IMG/VR virus record: IMGVR_UViG_3300034104_000152 | Location: 1-24,667 of that record | DNA from: a virus | DNA length: 24,667 bases | Reading direction: 5' to 3' (one strand) | In this document: one piece after another, positions 12,082-22,376 of the stretch | Numbering within the stretch: the first letter of the stretch is position 1 | How the letters are laid out: every line of letters starts with the position of its first letter | Program-made: the position numbers and the translations under genes | Notes under the pieces: generated by a model | Told to the model about the DNA's origin: nothing | Seen by the model: the letters and a program-made list of their open reading frames with translations, nothing else | Database searches by the model: none

Positions 12082-12728
12082 GGAGCCACGTTCTCCCTAA
12101 ACACAAAAGGACCGTCCCAGTTCACAAAAGCACCATTGGTCATTGGAGTCAGAGTGTATGTCGGGCACTGCTCCGCGTACACAGGAAAACTCACCGCAGA
12201 GCCAACAGCGGTCAGCGTACCAGTAGAAGGTGTACCAATCACAGGCCGGTGGATCGTGGCGTTCACAGTAGACGCGCCGCCCCTTAGAACGTCCGCAGTG
12301 ATCTTGTAGACGTAAGACCCTAGTTGGATGAAGTCCCCCGCCGCCAGGACGACTACAGAGCTTCCTACAGCAGGCAAGTTACCGATAGAGATCGTAGTTG
12401 CGTTAGCCGCAGGCACAGAAGCCAAAGTCAGCGCCGCCGCCTGGGCACCAGATAGGCCACCGCGATAAGCAGTAAACCAAGAAAGATTGCTGCTAGAAAA
12501 AGTGATGTTTGCAGCAGTTTGACGGTCAAGGTTGTCAATCGTCTGGATAACATCTCGGACCTGTGGGTAGTACAAATAGTTATGCGGGACGATGGTAAAC
12601 ACCCAAGGCACCGCTGTCAGGTACTGAGCGGTCCTGATTTGCCCGCCTCTAGAGACTTGCTGGCCGACAGTACGTCGGTTATTCACAGTCATGGACTGCT
12701 GAATATCGACTATCGATTGAAACGACAT
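12078..12728 (-). CDS. Minor tail protein, probably distal-tail-like
   Basis: This 216-aa, beta-rich protein starts MSFQSIVDIQQSMTVNNRRT. It contains an internal beta-barrel-like segment typical of structural proteins (VPAANATTISIGNLPAVGSS, then GDFIQLGSYVYKITADVLRG). It follows the tape measure by a TAATG overlap and is coupled to the next tip gene by ATGA. The first gene after the tape measure usually encodes the distal tail protein (Dit/gpM), which starts tube assembly, so that role is likely by position. The segment GDxIQLGxxxYKIT..V resembles repeated barrel domains seen in many phage tail proteins. I do not recognise a specific named family, so the label rests mainly on context and composition. 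Confidence 0.65.
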   Translation of the reverse strand: MSFQSIVDIQQSMTVNNRRTVGQQVSRGGQIRTAQYLTAVPWVFTIVPHNYLYYPQVRDVIQTIDNLDRQTAANITFSSSNLSWFTAYRGGLSGAQAAALTLASVPAANATTISIGNLPAVGSSVVVLAAGDFIQLGSYVYKITADVLRGGASTVNATIHRPVIGTPSTGTLTAVGSAVSFPVYAEQCPTYTLTPMTNGAFVNWDGPFVFRENVAP

Positions 12729-15157
12729 TATGCGCGTCCTCTTCCAATGGCAAGAGACTTGTTAGCGTAGGCATTAGCTGCCCACACCGCTGTACTACTT
12801 CCCATGATCCTATCCTCAAAACTCTTTACGTCAATCGCTTGGATGTTGTAGTTGTTAATAACCTGGGAACCACCAGTAGAGGAAAGAGCGTTATTAGGAA
12901 CAATAGTCCCAGATGTGCGAGGCACAAACATCTCTGGACCTTTCTCTCCAACCATGTAAGACGTTCCTGCATTAACAGGCCCCCCATAGGCTCTTGGCCT
13001 TAGCCCAGAACCTCCGGTAATAGTTCCACCGCTGGCCGACCCAAATGAGAACCCAAAGTTTCTCAGGAAGGAATTGAACAGCATCGTTGCCGAGGCTTTC
13101 AACTGAATCAGTATTAGGTCTTGGATGATCGACCTAGCCAAGTCCTTGAACGACAGCTTCCCAGTACGAACGAAGTTCTCTAGAGCTTTCTCCATGTTCC
13201 CGAACACGGCATCGTAGACACGCTGGGTGGCCTTCAGAGAGTCCTGCATAGAGATGAACATCTCTTGCATACCTTGGTTCCTGCGAGCCTGGGAGATCAA
13301 TAGATCACGCTTCTCAGGGCTGAGATCAGGATTAGCCATGATCTCTGCGATCTTTCTCCGAGTTTCCAACTCCAGCATGGCAATCTGAAGTGCTTTGTCA
13401 GAGGCTCCGATCAGAGAACCTTTGAGTTGCAGTTTCTGCATTTCGTACTCAAGGCTTTCCTTTTCTACTTGACCCGTCTGAACTAACTGGTTGTAAATCT
13501 GATCCCTGCGAGATTGCTCTTGAGCAAGATCATTCATGGCCTCATCAGCAAGTTTCTGACGGTCGGCCATTTCATCTGCGTAACGCTTCTTTGCAAGGTC
13601 GCGTAATTGTTTTTGCTTATCCTGCTCAATTTGAATTAGTTGTTGAGAAAGTAGTTTTGCATTTTGTTCAGCAAATACATCAGCTTCTGATTGATTCTTC
13701 TTTGCCATTTCGTTTCTGGCAAGGAATATCTTTTCTTGAGCATTAAGCTCAATAGTCATCATGTCATTCGCAGCCATCCTGCGACGATCATATTGATTTT
13801 TCACTATTGCCTGATCAATCTCAAAAGCAAGTTGTCGGCGCTTCTCACCAAACTTAACTTCATCGTTAATTTCTTGCGTGTTTTGTTGTGATTTCTTCGC
13901 TGCTTCTTCACCGGCTTGCATCTTGTCAAGGATTGTTTGCCTCTTAGTTACAAACTCCTGAAAGCTCTGCAACAGTTTCCCGTAGTAAACAGAGTCAGGA
14001 TTAGCCTTATTAAGTTGATTTGCCGCAGCAGTGATGAATTGGTTTATCTGATCCAGTTGATCTTCAAGAGTTTGTGGCCGACCGATATTAAGCAAAGCAT
14101 TCCAAGCTGCACTAGCCGCATTCTTAAGTTTCGTCCATGCTCCCTCAAGAGTTCCCACTTGGCGCTCTTGGTCTTGAAGTTTCTTATTCAGCGCATCAGC
14201 AGCAACCTTGGCGGCCTCTTGAGCTTTGCCTTGCTTATCAAGAAGAACAATGTGCTTGTATTGCTCAAGTGTTAGGAAGTGCATCCTGTCATTGAGCGAC
14301 TTAATAGAGGACGCGCCGCCATCAAAAGCAGGGATTAGTTTCTGTGCAACCTCAGTAGCCGTTTCACCAGACAACTTGGTGACGTTGGCAATAGCTTGGG
14401 CGACAGAACCTAGAGATTGATCTGTGAACTTTCCAGACTTGACCAACTCCATCAAGATGTCTTTGGTCTTGCCAATAGACAAGTTGGTCTTTGTGCTGAC
14501 CGAATCAGCGAGATCAAGAAAAGTCTTTTGCGTTAGGTTTGCATAGTTGCCTGTCAGGATCAACTGATCTCTGAGTTCCGCTGCATCTCTAGCGCCCTGA
14601 TAAAAAGCAAAACCAAGAACACCAACGCCAGCAGCAAGCCCTGTGATCGCCACCTTCATCGGGGTGATCATTAAAGAAAGGGCTTTGAACATATTGCCCA
14701 CGCCACCGAACTGATCCTTCAACTGACCACCCTGCTGGAGCAGAGCGATCATGGCGCTTTGGCCTGATGCGATCTGGGTTACGAGGTCGGTTGTTTGATA
14801 GGTGATGGCGAGCTTCTGCTGCTCAGACAGAACCCCCATCGTGCGCTTGCCTGCCGCAGACACTTCGTCGTAAGCCTTAGCCTGGGCAAGAAGCTGTTGC
14901 TGAAGAGCAGGAGCCGCGTTCTTGAATCTACCTGCGGCAATCTCACGCTCAATCTGCGTTACCTTGGAAACCTCTTTGCCATAGTCTTCAGTGGCGTATT
15001 TAAGAGCAACAATCTCTTTAGCCGCAGCATTAGATTCCCTAGTAATGGCCGCCTTGAGGTTTCTAGTCTCAGCAATAGCCTTGTCAACGTCAGCAGTAAA
15101 TGACGCAGTATCAAGACCAAGAACGACACCAAGTCGAGCAATGTTGCTGGATGCCAT
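12728..15157 (-). CDS. Tail tape measure protein, lambda gpH-type
   Basis: This 809-aa protein sets tail length and is ejected with the DNA. The N-terminal ~120 residues are helical and charged (ADVDKAIAETRNLKAAITRE). Residues about 152-196 hold the hydrophobic stretch found in tape measures (LMITPMKVAITGLAAGVGVL). Residues about 400-620 are rich in Gln, Lys, Glu and Ala, forming a long helix. The C-terminal region (about 670-760) matches the lambda tape-measure end: NFVRTGKLSFKDLARSIIQD, then AYGGPVNAGTSYMVGEKGPE and MFVPRTSGTIVPN. At ~1.5 Angstrom per residue the tail would be roughly 120 nm (rule of thumb). It follows the gp10-like gene with a TAATG overlap and is the longest mainly alpha-helical gene here. 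Confidence 0.93.
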   Translation of the reverse strand: MASSNIARLGVVLGLDTASFTADVDKAIAETRNLKAAITRESNAAAKEIVALKYATEDYGKEVSKVTQIEREIAAGRFKNAAPALQQQLLAQAKAYDEVSAAGKRTMGVLSEQQKLAITYQTTDLVTQIASGQSAMIALLQQGGQLKDQFGGVGNMFKALSLMITPMKVAITGLAAGVGVLGFAFYQGARDAAELRDQLILTGNYANLTQKTFLDLADSVSTKTNLSIGKTKDILMELVKSGKFTDQSLGSVAQAIANVTKLSGETATEVAQKLIPAFDGGASSIKSLNDRMHFLTLEQYKHIVLLDKQGKAQEAAKVAADALNKKLQDQERQVGTLEGAWTKLKNAASAAWNALLNIGRPQTLEDQLDQINQFITAAANQLNKANPDSVYYGKLLQSFQEFVTKRQTILDKMQAGEEAAKKSQQNTQEINDEVKFGEKRRQLAFEIDQAIVKNQYDRRRMAANDMMTIELNAQEKIFLARNEMAKKNQSEADVFAEQNAKLLSQQLIQIEQDKQKQLRDLAKKRYADEMADRQKLADEAMNDLAQEQSRRDQIYNQLVQTGQVEKESLEYEMQKLQLKGSLIGASDKALQIAMLELETRRKIAEIMANPDLSPEKRDLLISQARRNQGMQEMFISMQDSLKATQRVYDAVFGNMEKALENFVRTGKLSFKDLARSIIQDLILIQLKASATMLFNSFLRNFGFSFGSASGGTITGGSGLRPRAYGGPVNAGTSYMVGEKGPEMFVPRTSGTIVPNNALSSTGGSQVINNYNIQAIDVKSFEDRIMGSSTAVWAANAYANKSLAIGRGRA

Positions 15158-15642
15158 TACTTCTTCCTTCGATTCAGTCGCTTCGCGTAAGCAGGGATTA
15201 TGTAAGCTAACTCGCTCTTTAGTGCATCTAAAACTATCTCTACTTGACTATCTAACGCAGGTCTTAAAAAAGGATGACCGTTTGGCATTTTGCTAGTCCC
15301 AAACTCCTGAGCCAATGACACCGCGCTCTTCTTAACCGAAACAACCGCAATAGCCGCGTCTGTCTCGTTGACGTACTTGGACATCTTGTCCCTACCGTGA
15401 GGGATTCTGGCGTCTAGTTTTACCGTATCTCTGAGGTGGATTGGTCCGGTGTTGCTTTCATCATAGGGAGCAGTCTGCTCAACCCGCTGATACACCGGCA
15501 ACATAGCATTACGCGCCGCCTTTACGAGGGTGTTCCTCGCAACTAGGTCAGCGCGATAGCCTTGAGCCAAGTCCCGAAGTTGCTGCTCTAACTCAGCAAA
15601 TCCCTCTAACTTGACCCCTCGCTCATTGGGTATGTACGCCAA
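15157..15642 (-). CDS. HK97 gp10-like neck/tail protein, displaced next to tape measure
   Basis: This 161-aa protein shows the HK97 gp10 pattern: GFAELEQQLRDLAQGYRADL, then ARNTLVKAARNAMLPVYQRV, then HLRDTVKL. Its signature end is EFGT (113-116) and HPFLRPALD (123-131). The family acts at the head-tail joint, usually encoded between head closure and the DUF3168-type protein. Here it sits after the tail chaperone instead. The start is TTG at 15642-15640 with a good SD, GGAG at 7 nt spacing, and overlaps the frameshift product's stop by 20 nt. No ATG gives the conserved N-terminus. The C-terminus is basic (KRLNRRKK). Function as tail terminator or joint protein is inferred from family. Confidence 0.85.
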   Translation of the reverse strand: MAYIPNERGVKLEGFAELEQQLRDLAQGYRADLVARNTLVKAARNAMLPVYQRVEQTAPYDESNTGPIHLRDTVKLDARIPHGRDKMSKYVNETDAAIAVVSVKKSAVSLAQEFGTSKMPNGHPFLRPALDSQVEIVLDALKSELAYIIPAYAKRLNRRKK

Positions 15643-16404
15643 ACAACTTCTCCGCGCCTGGGGCCTGAGCCATGAAGGAAATCAGATTGTTGTTGACGGC
15701 AACCTTTTGTTCCTCTTCCGTCAACGGAGGAACAATGTACTCATGGGTTGAAGGAAGAATATCCTTCATCTCAAACGCTTTGTTCCCTTGTCGGAGTTTA
15801 GCGTTTAGGTTCCCAGTAGCAAAGCCACTCAAGGCTAACAGCATAGCCTTGTTCCCCAGATAACCGTCATGCAGCATGATCTCGATGTTCCGCATGTCGT
15901 CTGCTGGGATGTTGTCAGGACACCCACCGTGAGCCCAGACGTAAGCCCGAGCCTGTGAGTAAGTGTCCCTTAAGAGTTTTTTCGGGAGTCCCCGTAGGAA
16001 GGCTGGATAGCCTCTTGAATGCCCTTGATCATCTCGAGTTGAACAGTGAAGGGCATTTCCTCTTCAATCTGCTCATAGGTCAGATCATCAAGATTTCCTT
16101 CGATGGGAACCAAGAGCCGGAACATCTCGACAATGCGGTTCTCGACCTGCATAGCGGTGCGTACAAGCTCTTTTGTGGACCGACCATCCACATATACGTC
16201 CCCGTCCTTTTCCTCGCCTTGTAGGCCCTTTACAGCCTTCTCGTAGCGGGTTTGGAACTTGGCCTCATCTACTACTTCAATCCTGGCTTGCATGTCCTCC
16301 ATCTCTTTAGATAGAGGAACACGAACCTTGAAGGTCTTGTTCGCCAGGACGAACGACTTGATGCGAAGGGATGACGTATCCCCAAAGGCTTGGGAGAGCT
16401 TCAT
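15623..16404 (-). CDS. Tail assembly chaperone, long form by -1 frameshift (gpGT-like)
   Basis: If ribosomes slip -1 at A AAA AAC (15982-15976), the 144-aa short form is extended. The tail begins LLRDTYSQARAYVWAHGGCP and runs to the stop at 15623, about 260 aa in total. The -1 frame is open from the slip site for 117 residues with no stop. It contains MLHDGYLGNKAMLLALSGFA, and no ribosome site is needed to explain it. In lambda the G and GT proteins bind the tape measure and recruit tube subunits; the ratio is set by frameshifting. The first ATG in this frame (15895) is not a convincing independent start because the coding signal runs upstream of it. Position directly before the gp10-like gene and tape measure fits the family. 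Confidence 0.87.
15918..15982 (-). promoter_or_regulatory. Programmed -1 ribosomal frameshift signal
   Basis: The heptamer A AAA AAC lies at 15982-15976 in the correct phase (CGA AAA AAC TCT TAA). After a 7-nt spacer, GGACAC at 15968-15963 can pair with GTGTCC at 15923-15918, with a 39-nt loop that may fold further. Slippery site, spacer and the open -1 frame together make this the best-supported regulatory element in the window. The stem is short and unproven. Confidence 0.85.
15970..16404 (-). CDS. Tail assembly chaperone, short form (gpG-like)
   Basis: This 144-aa mostly helical protein starts MKLSQAFGDTSSLRIKSFVL. It carries a beta-hairpin N-terminus, then acidic helices (LTYEQIEEEMPFTVQLEMIK), and ends SYGDSRKNS. 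The short form terminates at 15970, five codons after the point where the slippery heptamer begins. By position (after the tube protein genes, before the tape measure) and by the frameshift it is the lambda gpG equivalent. The short form is normally made in large excess over the fused form. The start codon is ATG, 2 nt after the previous stop. Confidence 0.88.
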   Translation of the reverse strand: MKLSQAFGDTSSLRIKSFVLANKTFKVRVPLSKEMEDMQARIEVVDEAKFQTRYEKAVKGLQGEEKDGDVYVDGRSTKELVRTAMQVENRIVEMFRLLVPIEGNLDDLTYEQIEEEMPFTVQLEMIKGIQEAIQPSYGDSRKNS

Positions 16405-16627: not shown

Positions 16628-16779
16628 TGTTTCAGGATTTGCAGACAGATATATTCCGCAGTGTCGGGTTCAGCCTCTTCCAAAGCTAACTCAACTTCCT
16701 CTTGGTCTACATGGAACCCCCGAGCAAACGCCCGGAGGTCGCCCTTGTACTCGACCATCTGAGCGATGATCTCATCCAT
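16624..16779 (-). CDS. Small helical protein, 51 aa
   Basis: The gene begins MDEIIAQMVEYKGDLRAFAR and ends TAEYICLQILKQ. The ATG at 16779-16777 overlaps the upstream stop as TAATG, with GGAG 9 nt upstream. A longer reading from 16869 is rejected because it would overlap the second tail tube gene by 91 nt. The sequence has an alternating acidic helix with a helix-turn-helix-like profile (DLRAFARGFHVDQEEVELAL), but this does not establish DNA binding. Its role may be in tail assembly. Confidence 0.7.
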   Translation of the reverse strand: MDEIIAQMVEYKGDLRAFARGFHVDQEEVELALEEAEPDTAEYICLQILKQ

Positions 16780-17297
16780 TAGTTGTTGCTCCAGCCAAAC
16801 TGACCGCCGCGAGGATGGATCGTGAACGTGGCCTTCGCTTCTGCCCCAGGCTGGGCATCGATCTGCCACTGCGCCGCCCGACCGTTGAACGCATAGGCCA
16901 CCACGTTCGTGCCGTCGTAAGCAGCAATAACGTAGGTGCGATCCACAGTTCCAGAGTAGGCGTCAGTGCGAATCTGGATCAACGCGGTGTCAGCCGGGTT
17001 CCAGGCTGCCGTGATGGTCAGGCTAGTAGGGGCCGCTTGTGCAGGAATCTTGTCCGATTGCCGTGCGCCAGCAACCGAATAGTTCACTACTGCATCATCT
17101 TGCCCAAAAGCTGGGATAGCCTCCACAGCGATAGCCATACCGTTAGCACCAGTGCCGCCAGCAGTAGTGCCAACAATCGCCGCAACTTGCGCCGTCCAGA
17201 CAGACAGGTTGGCAGTTGAAAGCGTGGTCGGCGTGGCCGCGCTTTGAGCCCATAGGGTCGCGGTAAACCCAGGAAGAACCTTACTTGGGAGTGCCAT
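16779..17297 (-). CDS. Tail tube protein paralogue 2
   Basis: This 172-aa protein is the second of two tandem homologues. It begins MALPSKVLPGFTATLWAQ and shares long blocks with copy 1: AFGQDDA, SVAGARQSDK, APTSLTITAAWNP, WQIDAQPGAEAK, TIHPRG and QFGWSNN. It differs by an extra ~9 residues in a Gly/Ala-rich loop (about 40-55, GTTAGGTGANG) and by scattered substitutions. It most likely builds the tail tube or a decorated part of it, but position alone cannot tell which copy is the main tube protein. SD GAGG precedes the ATG. It ends in a TAATG overlap with the next small gene. Confidence 0.75.
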   Translation of the reverse strand: MALPSKVLPGFTATLWAQSAATPTTLSTANLSVWTAQVAAIVGTTAGGTGANGMAIAVEAIPAFGQDDAVVNYSVAGARQSDKIPAQAAPTSLTITAAWNPADTALIQIRTDAYSGTVDRTYVIAAYDGTNVVAYAFNGRAAQWQIDAQPGAEAKATFTIHPRGGQFGWSNN

Positions 17298-17305
17298 GAT
17301 TTACC

Positions 17306-17800
17306 TCAGACGTTGTTAGACCAACCGAATTGGTTGCCACGCGGGTGGATCGTCAGCATAACCTTGGCTTCTGCGCCCGGTTGAGCATCGATCTGCCACT
17401 GAGACACGCGGCCATTGAAGGCGTAATAAACGATGTTTGCGCCTTCAGTAGCAGAGATCACGAACGTGCGGTCAACAGTACCGTTGTACGCATCAGCACG
17501 AAGCAACAGCAAAACCGAGTCAGTCGGATTCCACGCGGCAGTGATCGTGAGCGAGGTCGGAGCACTCTGGACAGGCACCTTATCGGACTGTCGAGCACCT
17601 GCAACAGAGAAGTTGGCAGAAGCATCGTCTTGACCGAACGCAGGCACTGCCTCGACGTTCATCAAGTTACCGGAAATAGCCAGAGGACTGACGCTTGCAA
17701 CCAGAGCAAGCTGTGCAGTGGTCAACGGCGTCGGAGAAGCCCCAGGTTGTGCGTACATTGCCACACTAAACCCAGGCAGAACTTTATTTGGCAGAGCCAT
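17306..17800 (-). CDS. Major tail (tube) protein, copy 1
   Basis: This 164-aa protein begins MALPNKVLPGFSVAMYAQPG and has the compact beta-rich composition of tail tube proteins. It has a strong SD (AAAGGA) and follows the tail completion gene by 10 nt, the normal position for the main tube protein. It is followed 8 nt later by its paralogue, with which it shares the N- and C-terminal ends nearly exactly. Identification as tube protein is from order (connector, closure, completion, tube, chaperone, tape measure) and length; no fold-level match was tested. Confidence 0.78.
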   Translation of the reverse strand: MALPNKVLPGFSVAMYAQPGASPTPLTTAQLALVASVSPLAISGNLMNVEAVPAFGQDDASANFSVAGARQSDKVPVQSAPTSLTITAAWNPTDSVLLLLRADAYNGTVDRTFVISATEGANIVYYAFNGRVSQWQIDAQPGAEAKVMLTIHPRGNQFGWSNNV

Positions 17801-17810
17801 GATTTTCCTT

Positions 17811-18230
17811 TCAAGTTGGGATGTCTAGTGTGCAGTCCAAGAAAACCTGGGCCATCTTTTCTTTGTCGTCGTAGGAATTGTAGAGCCAAAACACATCCGC
17901 CTTGGCAATCCAAAACCCATATGTCGGCCCACCGAAAACTCCGGTGTAGCCATGCAAAGATTGTAGTATCTGGTTACTGATTGTGAAACCGTCTTCCATT
18001 CCCTGAGTGAAAATAGAGATTTGGAAGACAGGTCGATCTATACCTTTGTTTGCTTGGTTTCCACCTGTATACACTTCTTGGTGGACATTCCTAAGTTGCC
18101 AAGTGAGGAACTTAGGCTCTAAGGCAAAGTTACGGTTGAAAGCAGAGTAGACAGGAACCGGCGTGACAATGCTAGTCAGGTGAGCCTGAATCGCCTTAGC
18201 GTAGTCAACCGGATTCTTTTGCGATGCCAT
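17811..18230 (-). CDS. Tail completion / neck protein, DUF3168-like (gp17-type)
   Basis: This 139-aa protein begins MASQKNPVDYAKAIQAHLTS and contains VPVYSAFNR, VFQISIFTQGMEDGFTISNQ and VFLDCTLDIPT. The arrangement of an N-terminal helix, strands with VFQISIF and a second helix fits DUF3168 proteins, which close the tail end facing the head or stabilise the neck. It starts in a TGATG overlap with the head-closure stop and ends just before the tube protein's SD. Position between head closure and tube protein is the usual one, so confidence is fairly good without a profile match. Confidence 0.75.
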   Translation of the reverse strand: MASQKNPVDYAKAIQAHLTSIVTPVPVYSAFNRNFALEPKFLTWQLRNVHQEVYTGGNQANKGIDRPVFQISIFTQGMEDGFTISNQILQSLHGYTGVFGGPTYGFWIAKADVFWLYNSYDDKEKMAQVFLDCTLDIPT

Positions 18231-18571: not shown

Positions 18572-19218
18572 AGGACAAGAGGCTTATAAGGCCGCATCAT
18601 CGCGTGAAATCCAAATGGAATCTCACGCAAAATTTTCTCTGTTGAATTTGATCTGGTGTTGTACCAGTGGGTCAACAACATCAGACCTGCTTGTTTGATG
18701 ATCGGGTAGGTAGACAGCGGATTGGAAACCGTTGTGTACTCGCACAAAACAGGACTTGTCCTCATTGTGCTGAAGTCTGTAGGAATACTGTTCACAATGA
18801 CCTTGTTTCCACTTTGATCGTAGTAATAATCAGATGGGGCAACCGTAGTCAGAACGTTAGAACTGCTCCAATACTTAACTGCTCTTACGTTAAGTCCAGA
18901 CTGACTAGAGTACATGCTCTGACTCACCGCAGGCAAGTCTAGAGCAAGAGGAACACCATACAAACTGCTGGCGTTGTAGTAAACCCGATAACCAATCGGG
19001 AAGATCGACATTCCAAGATAATCCTCAATGAACTGCCTTACAGCCAACTCTAGACCGTAAAGGTAATCATCCTGGGATGTGTCACCGTACAGGTTGACTT
19101 GATCTCTGATCTCTTCAATAGTAAGCCAAGGCGTAACAACGTCACGGGAAATCTGTTCAACTTTTTCATAGTTGAACGGATTGCGGGGAGCACCGATGAC
19201 GATGTTTTCTATGGTCAT
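18568..19218 (-). CDS. Head-tail connector (HK97 gp6-like)
   Basis: This 216-aa protein contains the connector signature in its N-terminal third: TPWLTIEEIRDQVNLYGDTS, then DDYLYGLELAVRQFIEDYLG (about 29-69). A beta-rich segment with FPIGYRVYYNASSLYGVPL follows, then YYYDQSGNKVIVNSIP and a C-terminal helix (PIIKQAGLMLLTHWYNTRSN). Proteins of this type (gp6-like / phiE125 gp8-like) form a ring below the portal. It overlaps the second capsid gene by ATGA and the head-closure gene by ATGA. The length is typical. Confidence 0.85.
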   Translation of the reverse strand: MTIENIVIGAPRNPFNYEKVEQISRDVVTPWLTIEEIRDQVNLYGDTSQDDYLYGLELAVRQFIEDYLGMSIFPIGYRVYYNASSLYGVPLALDLPAVSQSMYSSQSGLNVRAVKYWSSSNVLTTVAPSDYYYDQSGNKVIVNSIPTDFSTMRTSPVLCEYTTVSNPLSTYPIIKQAGLMLLTHWYNTRSNSTEKILREIPFGFHAMMRPYKPLVL

Positions 19219-20216
19219 ACCTTGACTCGCACACCTGCAAACGGATCACGAACGGTAGACACCATCCGCTTTTCCGCGTACATCGTAACAAAGCCTGGGG
19301 CCGTCTGTTCCATCATTTGAATGCTCATTTCCATAGCATCACCGATGGTCAAGAATCGAGGCCAGTTAGCAAGATAGATAGGATACGAAGCGCTCAGATA
19401 CGGATTTGGAATCACCGGGAAACCAAACATTCGACCTACAGCAGCACCGTCCTCATCACCGACTTCCAAGAAGATCGGCAGGTTCTGCAAGTCCTTCAGG
19501 TCACGAAGAGCTTGGATCGTCGCAGGGCGAACGTGCCAAGCATTCCCAGGCAGAGCCCAGTATTGAGACGGGAACTTGCCTACAGCAGCAGTCAGGTCAG
19601 CGTACGCAACAGCAGTCGTTGCCGTCTGGGTTGCAATCGTGTGGATGCCGTTGGTGATAGCGGTCCCAGAAGTACCAAATGCCGACGTAGCACCATCAAG
19701 GTACATATTCAGTCCACGAAGCCCTGACGTAGCGCCTGTGGCCGTCGTAGTGGACCCGGCTTGGTCGTTGTTGACTGCCATCGATGCGCCCTCAAGGGCC
19801 GCGAACTCGAGCATCAGGTCTTCTACTAGGGTCGCTTCCAGTGAATTCACATCAGAAAGCACAGCAGATCGAACCGGAAAACTAGCAGCAATATCCCGTA
19901 CAGGAAGTTTCCAGATTACCGTGTCGATATTCGGGCTGCCAGTGTTATTGGCAGGCGTGTATCCCCACGGAGTGGAATTCGTTGCGTTACCAGTTTTGGC
20001 AACAAAAAGAGCATCTGACCCATTCACAGGCATTTGCCGAGAACCCATGCGAAATGGGTTCGCTTCGCGAAGCGCTGCGAATGAGTCATCAAAAACAGTC
20101 CGACCACCTTTGTCCAGACCGGAACCTGTCAGAGCCGATGCTTCCGACAAGTCAATCGTGACTTGCCGACCCTCATGGATAGATTTCTTGATTCCGTCTA
20201 GGATTTTGTCGATCAT
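19215..20216 (-). CDS. Second HK97-fold capsid protein paralogue
   Basis: This 333-aa protein aligns along most of its length with capsid protein 1: ASALTGSGLDKGGRTVFDDS, then FAALREANPF, VNNDQAG, GLRGLNMY, and C-terminal MEQTAPGFVTMYAEKR, then STVRDP. It lacks the ~75-residue helical N-terminal region of copy 1 (coiled-coil scaffold-like) and starts near the point where homology begins. It probably folds as an HK97 capsid subunit but would not carry its own scaffold domain. It could be a minor capsid subunit, for example at the vertices, or a second hexon protein (inference; gp23/gp24 of T4 is a known precedent of paired capsid paralogues). SD AAAAGGA, with an RNA hairpin just upstream. Confidence 0.9.
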   Translation of the reverse strand: MIDKILDGIKKSIHEGRQVTIDLSEASALTGSGLDKGGRTVFDDSFAALREANPFRMGSRQMPVNGSDALFVAKTGNATNSTPWGYTPANNTGSPNIDTVIWKLPVRDIAASFPVRSAVLSDVNSLEATLVEDLMLEFAALEGASMAVNNDQAGSTTTATGATSGLRGLNMYLDGATSAFGTSGTAITNGIHTIATQTATTAVAYADLTAAVGKFPSQYWALPGNAWHVRPATIQALRDLKDLQNLPIFLEVGDEDGAAVGRMFGFPVIPNPYLSASYPIYLANWPRFLTIGDAMEMSIQMMEQTAPGFVTMYAEKRMVSTVRDPFAGVRVKV

Positions 20217-20227
20217 GGCTGTTCCTT

Positions 20228-20257
20228 TTAATGGGGGCCGAAGCCCCCGTCCATTAA
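20228..20257 (-). terminator. UUCG hairpin between the two capsid genes (attenuator or processing site)
   Basis: In the transcript, GGGGGC pairs perfectly with GCCCCC around a UUCG tetraloop (20248-20233). UUAAU and AUUAA pair outside it, leaving a four-base bulge. It overlaps the stop codon of capsid gene 1 and ends just before the SD of gene 2. The 3' side is AUUAAAA without a U-run, so it is not a textbook intrinsic terminator. It could be a partial terminator, an RNase barrier or a 3' end stabiliser. Confidence 0.6.
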
Positions 20258-21585
20258 GCTGCTGCGGTGGCAGTCGAGCGATAACGGATCAGTGCGTTGG
20301 GGTCACGCACCGAGGTGCCCAGGCGCTTCTCACCGAAGAAGGTGATGAAGCCAGGAGCGGTCTGGTCGTAGCGGCGAACCACCATGCTCAGACGATCAAT
20401 GATGGTGTGAGCCTTTTGCCAATCACCGAAATACATCGGGTAGCGAGAAGCAGTACCAGCAGCAGCGGTCGTCGGCTGGCTCGGGTTGTCGAGGTACTTG
20501 TTGACCACAACATCAAAGCCCAGCAACTGGCCCACGATACCGTCAACACTCAGACCTTCATTGCGGTTGAAGATCGGAGCGCCTTGGGTGTCACGCAGAG
20601 CGCGAATGCCGTTCAGCAGGATCGGGTTGACCATGATCTTGCAAGCAGGCGTCCAGTATTCCTGGGGCAGCGCGTAGATCATGTTGATAACGTCGGTATA
20701 GATGACGCTGTTAGCGCCAACCGTATTGACGTTGGAGGTCAACTGATCGTAGGTAGCAAGGCTATGAAGACCAGAGGTCGAACCCGTACCAGACGTACCA
20801 AACGCCGCTGCCGAGGTCGTCCCACCAGCGTACGGAGAGTTCGCGCCACCGTACTGATCCAGACCACGCAGACCATCAGCGCCACCAGTAGCCACCGAGG
20901 TGCCAGTGCCGCTTTGGTCGTTGTTCTGCACCATCGACTGAGCTTCAGCCTGGGCGAACTCCATCAGCATGTCGTCAACGACAACCGCTTCCAGACCATC
21001 GATGTCGTCCAGAGCCGCAGTGCGGATCGGGAACTGCACGTTGATGTCCTTCAGCACGATCTGCCAAATGGTCGTGTCTTCAGTGGTCGTTGCCCCGTTG
21101 TTCTGGATGCCGTAGCCCCACTGAACACCAGCGTTGCCGCTCTTCACGCGGAACTGATAGGAAGAACCATCAGTCGTCACCGTGCGAGACAGGCCGCGCA
21201 TGGGGTTAGCCAGACGCAACGCAGCGAACACCGGGTCGTAAGCGGTGCGGCCGCCCTTGCCGTCGCCACCAGCGGTCAGCGCAGATGCTTCCTTCAGGTA
21301 GGCATTCATCTGCTCTTCGCTCTGGAACATCACCAGTTCTTTTTCAAACTGGCTCTTGCCGTTGGAGATGGTCTTCAGTTGCTCACGCACCATCCGGTTC
21401 ACATCCTGGCGGATCGTCTTGGCAGGGGCCTGGATGATGCCGGGGGCTTGAACGGAGGCGACCTTGGCTTCCAGGGCAGCGATCTTCTCGCTGACTTCAG
21501 CCTTCACCGACTCAACGGCGCTTTCGAGCTTGGCGGTTTGCTGGGCTTCGATCTGATCCAGCTTTTCGATGATAACGGTAGACAT
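20254..21585 (-). CDS. Major capsid protein, HK97 fold, with N-terminal helical region
   Basis: This 443-aa protein starts at ATG 21585 with AAAGG 6 nt upstream; an in-frame TTG at 21591 is less likely. The first ~75 residues are helical and charged (EKLDQIEAQQTAKLESAVES), like the delta (scaffold) domain removed by the prohead protease. Then come QMNAYLKEASALTAGGDGKG, FAALRLANPMRGLSRTV, the spine-helix region with MLMEFAQAEAQSMVQNNDQS and GLRGLDQYG. The C-terminus is DQTAPGFITFFGEKRLGTSV, then RDP. These match HK97-type capsid proteins of the large-N-arm kind. It follows the protease by 2 nt, the standard order. It is followed, after a hairpin, by a shorter paralogue, so the shell may contain both proteins. 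Confidence 0.93.
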   Translation of the reverse strand: MSTVIIEKLDQIEAQQTAKLESAVESVKAEVSEKIAALEAKVASVQAPGIIQAPAKTIRQDVNRMVREQLKTISNGKSQFEKELVMFQSEEQMNAYLKEASALTAGGDGKGGRTAYDPVFAALRLANPMRGLSRTVTTDGSSYQFRVKSGNAGVQWGYGIQNNGATTTEDTTIWQIVLKDINVQFPIRTAALDDIDGLEAVVVDDMLMEFAQAEAQSMVQNNDQSGTGTSVATGGADGLRGLDQYGGANSPYAGGTTSAAAFGTSGTGSTSGLHSLATYDQLTSNVNTVGANSVIYTDVINMIYALPQEYWTPACKIMVNPILLNGIRALRDTQGAPIFNRNEGLSVDGIVGQLLGFDVVVNKYLDNPSQPTTAAAGTASRYPMYFGDWQKAHTIIDRLSMVVRRYDQTAPGFITFFGEKRLGTSVRDPNALIRYRSTATAAA

Positions 21586-21587
21586 CT

Positions 21588-22376
21588 TCAACCTTTCAGT
21601 TTTTGGGACAGGACGCGGAGCAACTCACGCTCTTCAAGAGCCTGGAGGATTTCCGCTTCATTGGTCACTTCCGCGTCAGACTCACTCTGGTGCGGCGCAG
21701 TAAGCTCCTCTTTCACAGCATCACGCTGTTCCAAGACTTGCTTAAAAGTAGACGCGGCAGTGACCGCATCTTTCCTAGATAGCCCTGCCTCACGCAGAGC
21801 CGACTCCAGAACCTTGAGATCAGCAGAACCGTCAGGCCGGAAGAACTCCAGCTTCTTGACTTCTGCCATCGGGTTATTCGGGTACATCACTACGGACACC
21901 TCCCGCAAACCACCGTTGGTGATCTGGAAGTACCCTTCTCCCATGTCGTCTTGATTGCACATGGACCCGTCTTCTTTGACCATGCAGTATTCGTCTGCAT
22001 AGGCACCAACAGACACGCCACCAAACATATTGGGGCTTTCGGTCATTATCTGATACAGGTCAGAGCCACTGGTGGTGTTGACGAACAACCTGCCACTAGC
22101 GTTCATGCCCTCATCATCAAACTCGAAGTTGGTCCACTCACCAACAGGCATGCTGTCGCTGTTGTGATTCAGGAACATAGGCAAAGGCTTGCCCATCTTC
22201 TGGAACTCTTGGGCCCAGGCAGAAAAGCCTTCAGGACGGTAGTAAAACTTACGACCGTCCGCGCCCTCGCGGGCTCCCCACGTAGTGACGCGGGCTTCAA
22301 TCTTTCCGGTCTGTTCCTCGGACTTTTTTTCCGGCAGGTTTAGACTTGCTTCGCAGACCAGTTGGACTTGCTTCAT
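21588..22376 (-). CDS. Prohead protease, S78-like (HK97 gp4 type)
   Basis: This 262-aa protein probably matures the capsid by cutting the capsid N-arms and itself. The catalytic elements are visible: His71 in FLNHNSDSMPVGEW, Ser122 in MFGGVSVGAYADEY, and Glu159 in LREVSVVMYPNNPMAEV. The spacing fits the herpes-type protease fold of S78 members. The C-terminal ~70 residues are helical and acidic (DLKVLESALREAGLSRKDAV), probably scaffold-like. SD AGGGG, 6 nt from the ATG at 22376. It ends 2 nt before capsid gene 1. Confidence 0.9.
   Translation of the reverse strand: MKQVQLVCEASLNLPEKKSEEQTGKIEARVTTWGAREGADGRKFYYRPEGFSAWAQEFQKMGKPLPMFLNHNSDSMPVGEWTNFEFDDEGMNASGRLFVNTTSGSDLYQIMTESPNMFGGVSVGAYADEYCMVKEDGSMCNQDDMGEGYFQITNGGLREVSVVMYPNNPMAEVKKLEFFRPDGSADLKVLESALREAGLSRKDAVTAASTFKQVLEQRDAVKEELTAPHQSESDAEVTNEAEILQALEERELLRVLSQKLKG

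Follow-up and report, generated by a model that had tools for sequence, protein, structure and literature searches.

The tail tube gene pair and its surroundings

The window, the whole stretch of DNA that was analysed, is a single linear virus record of 24,667 b (IMG/VR record IMGVR_UViG_3300034104_000152). Its late operon lies on the minus strand and runs from a protease gene through two HK97-fold capsid genes, an adaptor gene and neck genes to two adjacent tail tube protein genes, here called C1 and C2. Downstream of C2 the same operon continues with small genes, tail chaperone genes, the tape measure gene and tail-tip genes. The placement of C1 and C2 between the neck and terminator genes on one side and the chaperone and tape measure genes on the other has the same order in relatives. 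The features used below are as follows.

19215-21591, minus strand: paired HK97-fold capsid genes, 333 and 445 aa, PF05065 in each
17811-18230, minus strand: gene of 139 aa immediately upstream of C1, putative tail terminator by position
17306-17800, minus strand: C1, first tail tube protein gene, 164 aa (open reading frame, AlphaFold, PDB, PHROG)
17534-17647, minus strand: C1 residues 52-89, b2-b3 loop and strand b3 as modelled, the co-evolving stretch
17298-17311, minus strand: C1 stop TGA (17306-17308), overlapped by the C2 ribosome-binding motif GAGGT
16779-17297, minus strand: C2, second tail tube protein gene, 172 aa (open reading frame, AlphaFold, PDB, PHROG)
17146-17172, minus strand: 9-residue Gly/Thr/Ala loop found in C2-type proteins only, about C2 residues 43-51 (family alignment)
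17007-17120, minus strand: C2 residues 60-98, the equivalent of C1 52-89, b2-b3 loop and strand b3 as modelled (boundary +/- one residue)
12728-15157, minus strand: tape measure protein, 809 aa (PF06791 and PF09718)

The 139 aa gene has no family match in PHROG or Pfam. In a single BLASTP comparison C1 and C2 are identical at 110 of 172 positions (64%) with 9 gap positions; at E = 3e-81 the similarity is not due to chance, and the tandem of highly similar genes of 164 and 172 aa given in a preliminary description of this DNA is borne out. An insertion of about nine residues in the second copy, noted there as Gly/Ala, is present in the family alignments, but its composition is Gly/Thr/Ala, and the letters conserved among C2 proteins are G-T-x-A-N/G-G-T-G. 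This loop is predicted to sit between a helix and strand b2, outside the ring-to-ring loop. The blocks SVAGARQSDK, APTSLTITAAWNP and WQIDAQPGAEAK, singled out as shared by the two copies, are indeed common to both, but they form a family-wide core that single-copy relatives also have and are therefore no marker of recent copying. From the C1 stop to the C2 start there are 8 b, and the arrangement of this junction is typical of coupled translation, which may operate here.

Sequence families give weak but consistent support for the assignment of both products as tail tube proteins. Neither C1 nor C2 has a Pfam match. PHROG 158, annotated 'major tail protein', weakly matches C2 of the window (E 4e-4) and gives no match to C1 of the window at 1e-3; it is matched by 36 of the 46 members of the C1/single-type alignment and by 34 of the 38 in the C2 alignment. 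A sequence search of the PDB with both family alignments returned no match at E up to 1. The AlphaFold models, which are monomers of middling confidence (pLDDT 75.1 and pTM 0.71 for C1, 71.1 and 0.72 for C2), contain the features of the tube fold: a b-sandwich, a flanking helix and a long b2-b3 loop. Among the PDB matches listed, the best for both models are lambda gpV and the tail core of phage YDC107 (for gpV, Foldseek E 2e-5 to 3e-4, VIA Z 11.5-12.8, 125-141 residues aligned; for gpV and the tail core together, Foldseek E up to 4e-4). Further tail tubes, Hcp proteins and a gene transfer agent rank below them, and the matches also include PVC and Afp tube chains from the baseplate and cap. 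The gpV-like fold together with PHROG 158 supports the earlier assignment of both copies as tail tube proteins.

C1 residues 52-83 are modelled as the long b2-b3 loop, and pLDDT in the 52-89 loop is mostly below 50. The corresponding loop makes ring-to-ring contacts in SPP1, JBD30 and T5, according to the available portions of the structural literature, and from its place in the fold C1 52-83 would be the equivalent contact loop.

Three further observations concern neighbouring genes. The tail chaperone gene pair (15623-16404, minus strand) has an apparent -1 frameshift fusion: a slippery A AAA AAC occupies 15976-15982, and from there the -1 frame stays open as far as the stop of the next open reading frame, a likeness to the -1 frameshift joining of the lambda chaperone genes G/GT. 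A gene resembling HK97 gp10 (15157-15642, minus strand) lies 3' of the chaperone pair in the window and 5' of it in single-copy loci, Methylophilaceae phage P19250A among them; the operon has thus undergone rearrangement in this region. An HNH endonuclease gene (PF13392; 1968-2459, minus strand), perhaps a homing endonuclease, adjoins a fibre-like gene of 1216 aa.

Distribution, age and conservation of the pair

We assembled 217 distinct loci from four IMG/VR scans, a phage record, a MAG contig and the window, with 18 same-contig duplicates dropped (L001 and L002, both the window itself, are included in this number). Two copies are present in 133 loci, one in 82 and three pieces, from a broken frame, in 2; because the loci were chosen by similarity to C1, C2 and the P19250A tube protein (best 80 per scan), the doubled share is no prevalence. 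Twelve of the 217 loci lacked usable complete copies and were dropped. In the first two scans (138 loci, with 12 same-contig duplicates dropped), 123 loci are doubled and the order is invariably C1-C2. The 133 doubled loci, together with copies identical to those of the window on contigs of other metagenomes (L004 and L006), rule out an assembly artefact, and the duplication is not unique to this assembly, an outcome the preliminary description had allowed for. A genome collection gave 32 pattern matches, one of them a true relative, which is a doubled locus (L225) on a MAG contig that carries the label Alphaproteobacteria. At the cut-offs used, P19250A was the only match in 50,697 phage records. 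In L018 and L193 the second copy is split into two overlapping frames, through either sequencing error or ongoing loss.

Some of the single-copy counts are due to contig ends. When flanks of at least 650 b before and at least 900 b after were required, there were 64 single loci, 56 of C1 type and 8 of C2 type. Whole-record searches found no second tube copy in 18 single-copy records, P19250A included, and both copies in each of five doubled records. Since C1-only and C2-only loci both exist, either type alone is probably able to build a tube.

In the protein tree, 27 of 28 C2 rows and one C2-type single form one group (support 100/100), and the C1 rows are intermixed with C1-type singles. For the remaining C2 row, placement inside C2 is not rejected and has the higher likelihood (p-AU 0.74). 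A first tree had put the 238-aa second copy of L010, L011, L015 and L016 outside C2; a separate second duplication for these loci was dropped, the tree with this copy inside C2 being likelier by the same test. The duplication is thus ancient and has been kept: a recent origin, one of the options first proposed, is rejected because C2 is a deep, supported clade and the fourfold sites between C1 and C2 of the same genome are saturated. When the tree is drawn from two adjacent genes, loci with one and with two tube copies are interspersed and supported branches force at least four changes; loss, gain or exchange of copies has therefore happened repeatedly. Tape measure proteins measure 533-675 aa, about 600 aa, in single-copy loci (38 C1-type, 6 C2-type) and 644-988 aa, median 806, in 69 doubled loci; with only 2 independent pairs on supported branches, a tie between doubling and a longer tape measure is not shown.

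The two capsid genes are 40% identical over their aligned part. That both main virion polymers are doubled in one operon, as the preliminary description had it, is true, but the doublings are not linked events: among loci with 4.8 kb or more of upstream sequence, all 31 with one tube gene and all 49 with two carry two capsid genes, so capsid doubling is wider and not tied to doubling of the tube gene. The HK97-fold capsid pair is retained in every one of these 80 loci. In P19250A the first gene of the pair is annotated as a 'gene transfer agent capsid protein' and the next as hypothetical, with two places listed in the record.

Both tube genes are under strong purifying selection. By the Nei-Gojobori method, dN/dS is 0.087 for C1 and 0.100 for C2 in 835 pairs of loci with dS of 0.05-0.7 in both genes, values that are descriptive because the pairs overlap; relaxed selection on one copy is rejected. 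The length of C1 is near-constant (164 aa in 127 of 129), and long forms are confined to C2, which has 238 aa in the four loci named above and at least 195 aa in L026, where it is ended by the contig edge and has about 55 extra residues in the C2-specific loop. The second copies of these five loci carry about 55-70 inserted residues in their front part; such inserts are absent from the 129 first copies, and the inserted stretches have no Pfam match above the curated cut-off. Loops that tolerate whole inserts would be expected to face outward.

Conservation of this kind bears on the idea that the virion can do without C2, which would then be a leftover or a decoy, for example against tube-sensing defences. 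The available portion of one paper describes a host defence, DSR2, that can sense tail tube proteins (PMC10981675), which lends the idea some plausibility. Purifying selection on C2 is equal to that on C1, however, the doubled loci are deeply conserved and the assembly core evolves in step (see below), and we consider such a role extremely improbable.

Parallel change in C1 and C2

Among 40 representative doubled loci, C1 residues 52-83 match C2 of their own genome at 94.5%, compared with 85.7% for C2 and 86.5% for C1 of other genomes. For residues 1-51 the own and foreign matches are 0.580 and 0.574, a difference reached in 14 of 300 shuffles. L015 was left out of this identity comparison. 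A per-site test, from which the long C2 was left out, gave an own-genome excess with z >2.5 at 22 of 54 testable positions, distributed as 8 of 10 in residues 52-83, 4 of 4 in 84-89, 9 of 24 in 90-164 and 1 of 16 in 1-51.

Changes were mapped on a tree of 105 doubled loci (124 before identical rows were merged), for which residues 1-51 and the third codon positions were used, and expected shared changes were computed with equal rates on all branches. In residues 52-89 we mapped 101 changes in C1 and 122 in C2, of which 45 coincide in branch and site, where 4.05 were expected, and 43 of these arrive at the same residue. The co-changing sites lie at residues 57, 61, 63-65, 77, 85 and 89. The control, residues 1-51, has 272 changes in C1 and 271 in C2; of these 23 are shared, with 9.49 expected, and 7 lead to the same residue. 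This control is imperfect in that the starting residues of the two proteins differ in it, and the fairer comparison is the same-branch excess, about 11-fold in 52-89 against 2.4-fold in 1-51. Residues 90-164 have 52 shared changes (14.63 expected), 29 to the same residue. In 57 disjoint close pairs we counted 28 identical changes in residues 52-89; when partners were swapped (2000 draws, matches scored in either direction) the mean was 6.7 and the maximum 17. Because several close pairs record one and the same event, we give the tree count more weight. L010, L011, L015, L016 and L026 were left out of the fourfold-site, close-pair and change-mapping analyses. Judged by these substitutions, residues 52-89 evolve in step in C1 and C2, and residues 1-51 diverge freely.

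Tandem genes convert readily, and gene conversion between the copies would also keep the core alike. Outside the co-evolving stretch, fourfold sites differ less within genomes than between them (0.570 own versus 0.655 foreign in residues 1-51, 0.592 versus 0.631 in 90-164), and in L091 the C1-C2 difference in 1-51 is just 0.24, so older conversion or shared base composition may act there. Within residues 52-89, by contrast, the fourfold difference is 0.676 between C1 and C2 of one genome and 0.670 with foreign C2, and its lowest value in any locus is 0.52. In disjoint close pairs, 37 of the 54 shared changes were made through codons that differ between C1 and C2, and the local C1-C2 fourfold difference is mostly greater than the divergence of the close pair itself; the two members of close pairs in which both copies changed differ from each other by only 0.1-0.5 at fourfold sites. 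Conversion after the split of a close pair should leave matched synonymous sites, a match that residues 52-89 do not show. The in-step change therefore occurs without synonymous matching and without recent conversion, and we hold conversion to be a very unlikely cause of the similarity of the core.

The coupling describes the family rather than the branch of the window in particular, because matching in the window pair is weak. This pair has 7 mismatches in residues 52-89, with only 6 of 129 doubles worse, and the window C2 fits the window C1 no better than a random C2 does (percentile 0.52; family mean 0.85). Near relatives of the window behave like it. The change Y158F is common to both copies within this lineage, with different codons. 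The branch of the window may be drifting away from the C1-C2 coupling.

Models of the tube and comparison with known systems

We think it probable that C1 and C2 are long-established subunits that co-polymerise in one non-contractile tube, with C2 lending it a different face. The two proteins would polymerise together around the tape measure protein in a single tail tube. With the ring-to-ring loop and core kept the same in both and held in register by selection, rings or subunits of either kind would be able to stack on each other. The front third, which includes the 9-residue loop of C2, would be free to differ, and C2 would thereby provide the tube with another type of surface. Of the roles for C2 raised in the preliminary description, a specialised tube segment or a decoration may still apply; the substitution pattern favours co-polymerisation with C2 altering the face of the tube, and it suggests that C1 and C2 touch in one tube. 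The C2 loop would be directed outward. A broader form of the proposal, to which we give slightly less than an even chance, is that a heteropolymeric siphophage tube is widespread in uncultured phages, its ring-to-ring loop held in residue-by-residue register by selection while the other face has diverged; in the window this register would be slipping, and C1 and C2 may there form separate ring types.

Two other arrangements predict some of the same observations. In contractile systems (Pvc/Afp) some tube paralogues are known to sit at an end of the tube, and C2 might similarly be confined to a specialised ring or a small number of them, either at the tip or just below the head, with C1 as the body, or the reverse. 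The PVC/Afp chains among the structural matches agree with this, and a single C1-C2 junction would likewise favour a matched loop. The 8 C2-only and 56 C1-only flanked loci indicate, on the other hand, that each type seems capable of forming a whole tube, and the co-evolving stretch covers many sites, seemingly more than one junction needs. We consider restriction to end rings unlikely.

Parallel change could also be explained by one partner common to both proteins, such as the tape measure, an assembly chaperone or the terminator, or by an environmental condition such as temperature, in which case C1 and C2 might never meet, as in alternative tails. Co-change does extend into residues 90-164, where the excess of shared changes and the changes to the same residue noted above would fit adaptation of this sort. 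It is strongest, however, in the b2-b3 loop, the ring contact in the available accounts of SPP1, JBD30 and T5, and residues 1-51 show little of it, which makes adaptation without contact less probable still than restriction to end rings.

Siphophage tail tubes are usually regarded as polymers of one protein around the tape measure. If C1 and C2 do co-polymerise, the paired substitutions at the ring-stacking loop would be natural sequence evidence for the residues of ring-to-ring contact, and a tube pair kept for so long would offer a test of assembly specificity in mixed-subunit polymers. Parallel amino-acid change without synonymous matching may more generally provide a sequence route to predicting heteropolymers from paralogue pairs.

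The one phage record matched, P19250A (KX815270), has the same gene order and capsid pair as the window, but one tube gene where the window has two. Both copies match the fold of lambda gpV (PDB 7t2e, 8k36) over near-whole length (Z about 12) and share its operon place between head-tail joining genes and the tape measure gene; the lambda tube is made from one protein, whereas the window has two paralogues, without the C-terminal Ig domain. The available text on SPP1 describes a tail that mixes gp17.1 and gp17.1* at 3:1, one having a modified outer part, and viable virions with gp17.1 alone (PMC7666168). The proposed likeness lies in two forms of tube protein in one tail, to which the in-step change of residues 52-89 lends indirect support, with one form altered on the outside. 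In SPP1 the second form arises by translational frameshift of one gene and adds an FN3 domain, whereas here there are two diverged, co-evolving genes. SPP1-type recoding was considered for C2 and set aside, as C1 and C2 are separate genes, each with its own start and ribosome-binding motif. In a secretion system rather than a phage tail, the Hcp2-Hcp3 heterohexamer of the Bacteroides fragilis T6SS (PDB 9vne), as far as its available description goes, places two tube-fold paralogues in one ring.

The available literature on duplicated, paralogous or second tail tube proteins comprises SPP1, lactococcal and SEA-PHAGES papers, and in these portions we found neither this tube family nor co-evolving tube paralogues. 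Paralogous tube genes within one tail operon are a feature shared with Microbacterium phages of cluster EL. Phage Damascus is noted as having 'two major tail proteins', and other clusters are said to share several major tail proteins with EL phages, in the accessible part of the paper (PMC11080557). In the EL phages DizzyRudy and Camille we found three paralogous 'major tail protein' genes near each other, those of Camille being 42-48% identical to one another. The EL proteins are different, their hosts are Gram-positive, and one non-tube gene lies between the first and second copies. Multiple tube genes have thus already been described for some actinobacterial phages (PMC11080557, same part); relative to the literature covered, what is new here is the in-step evolution of the two copies in this family.
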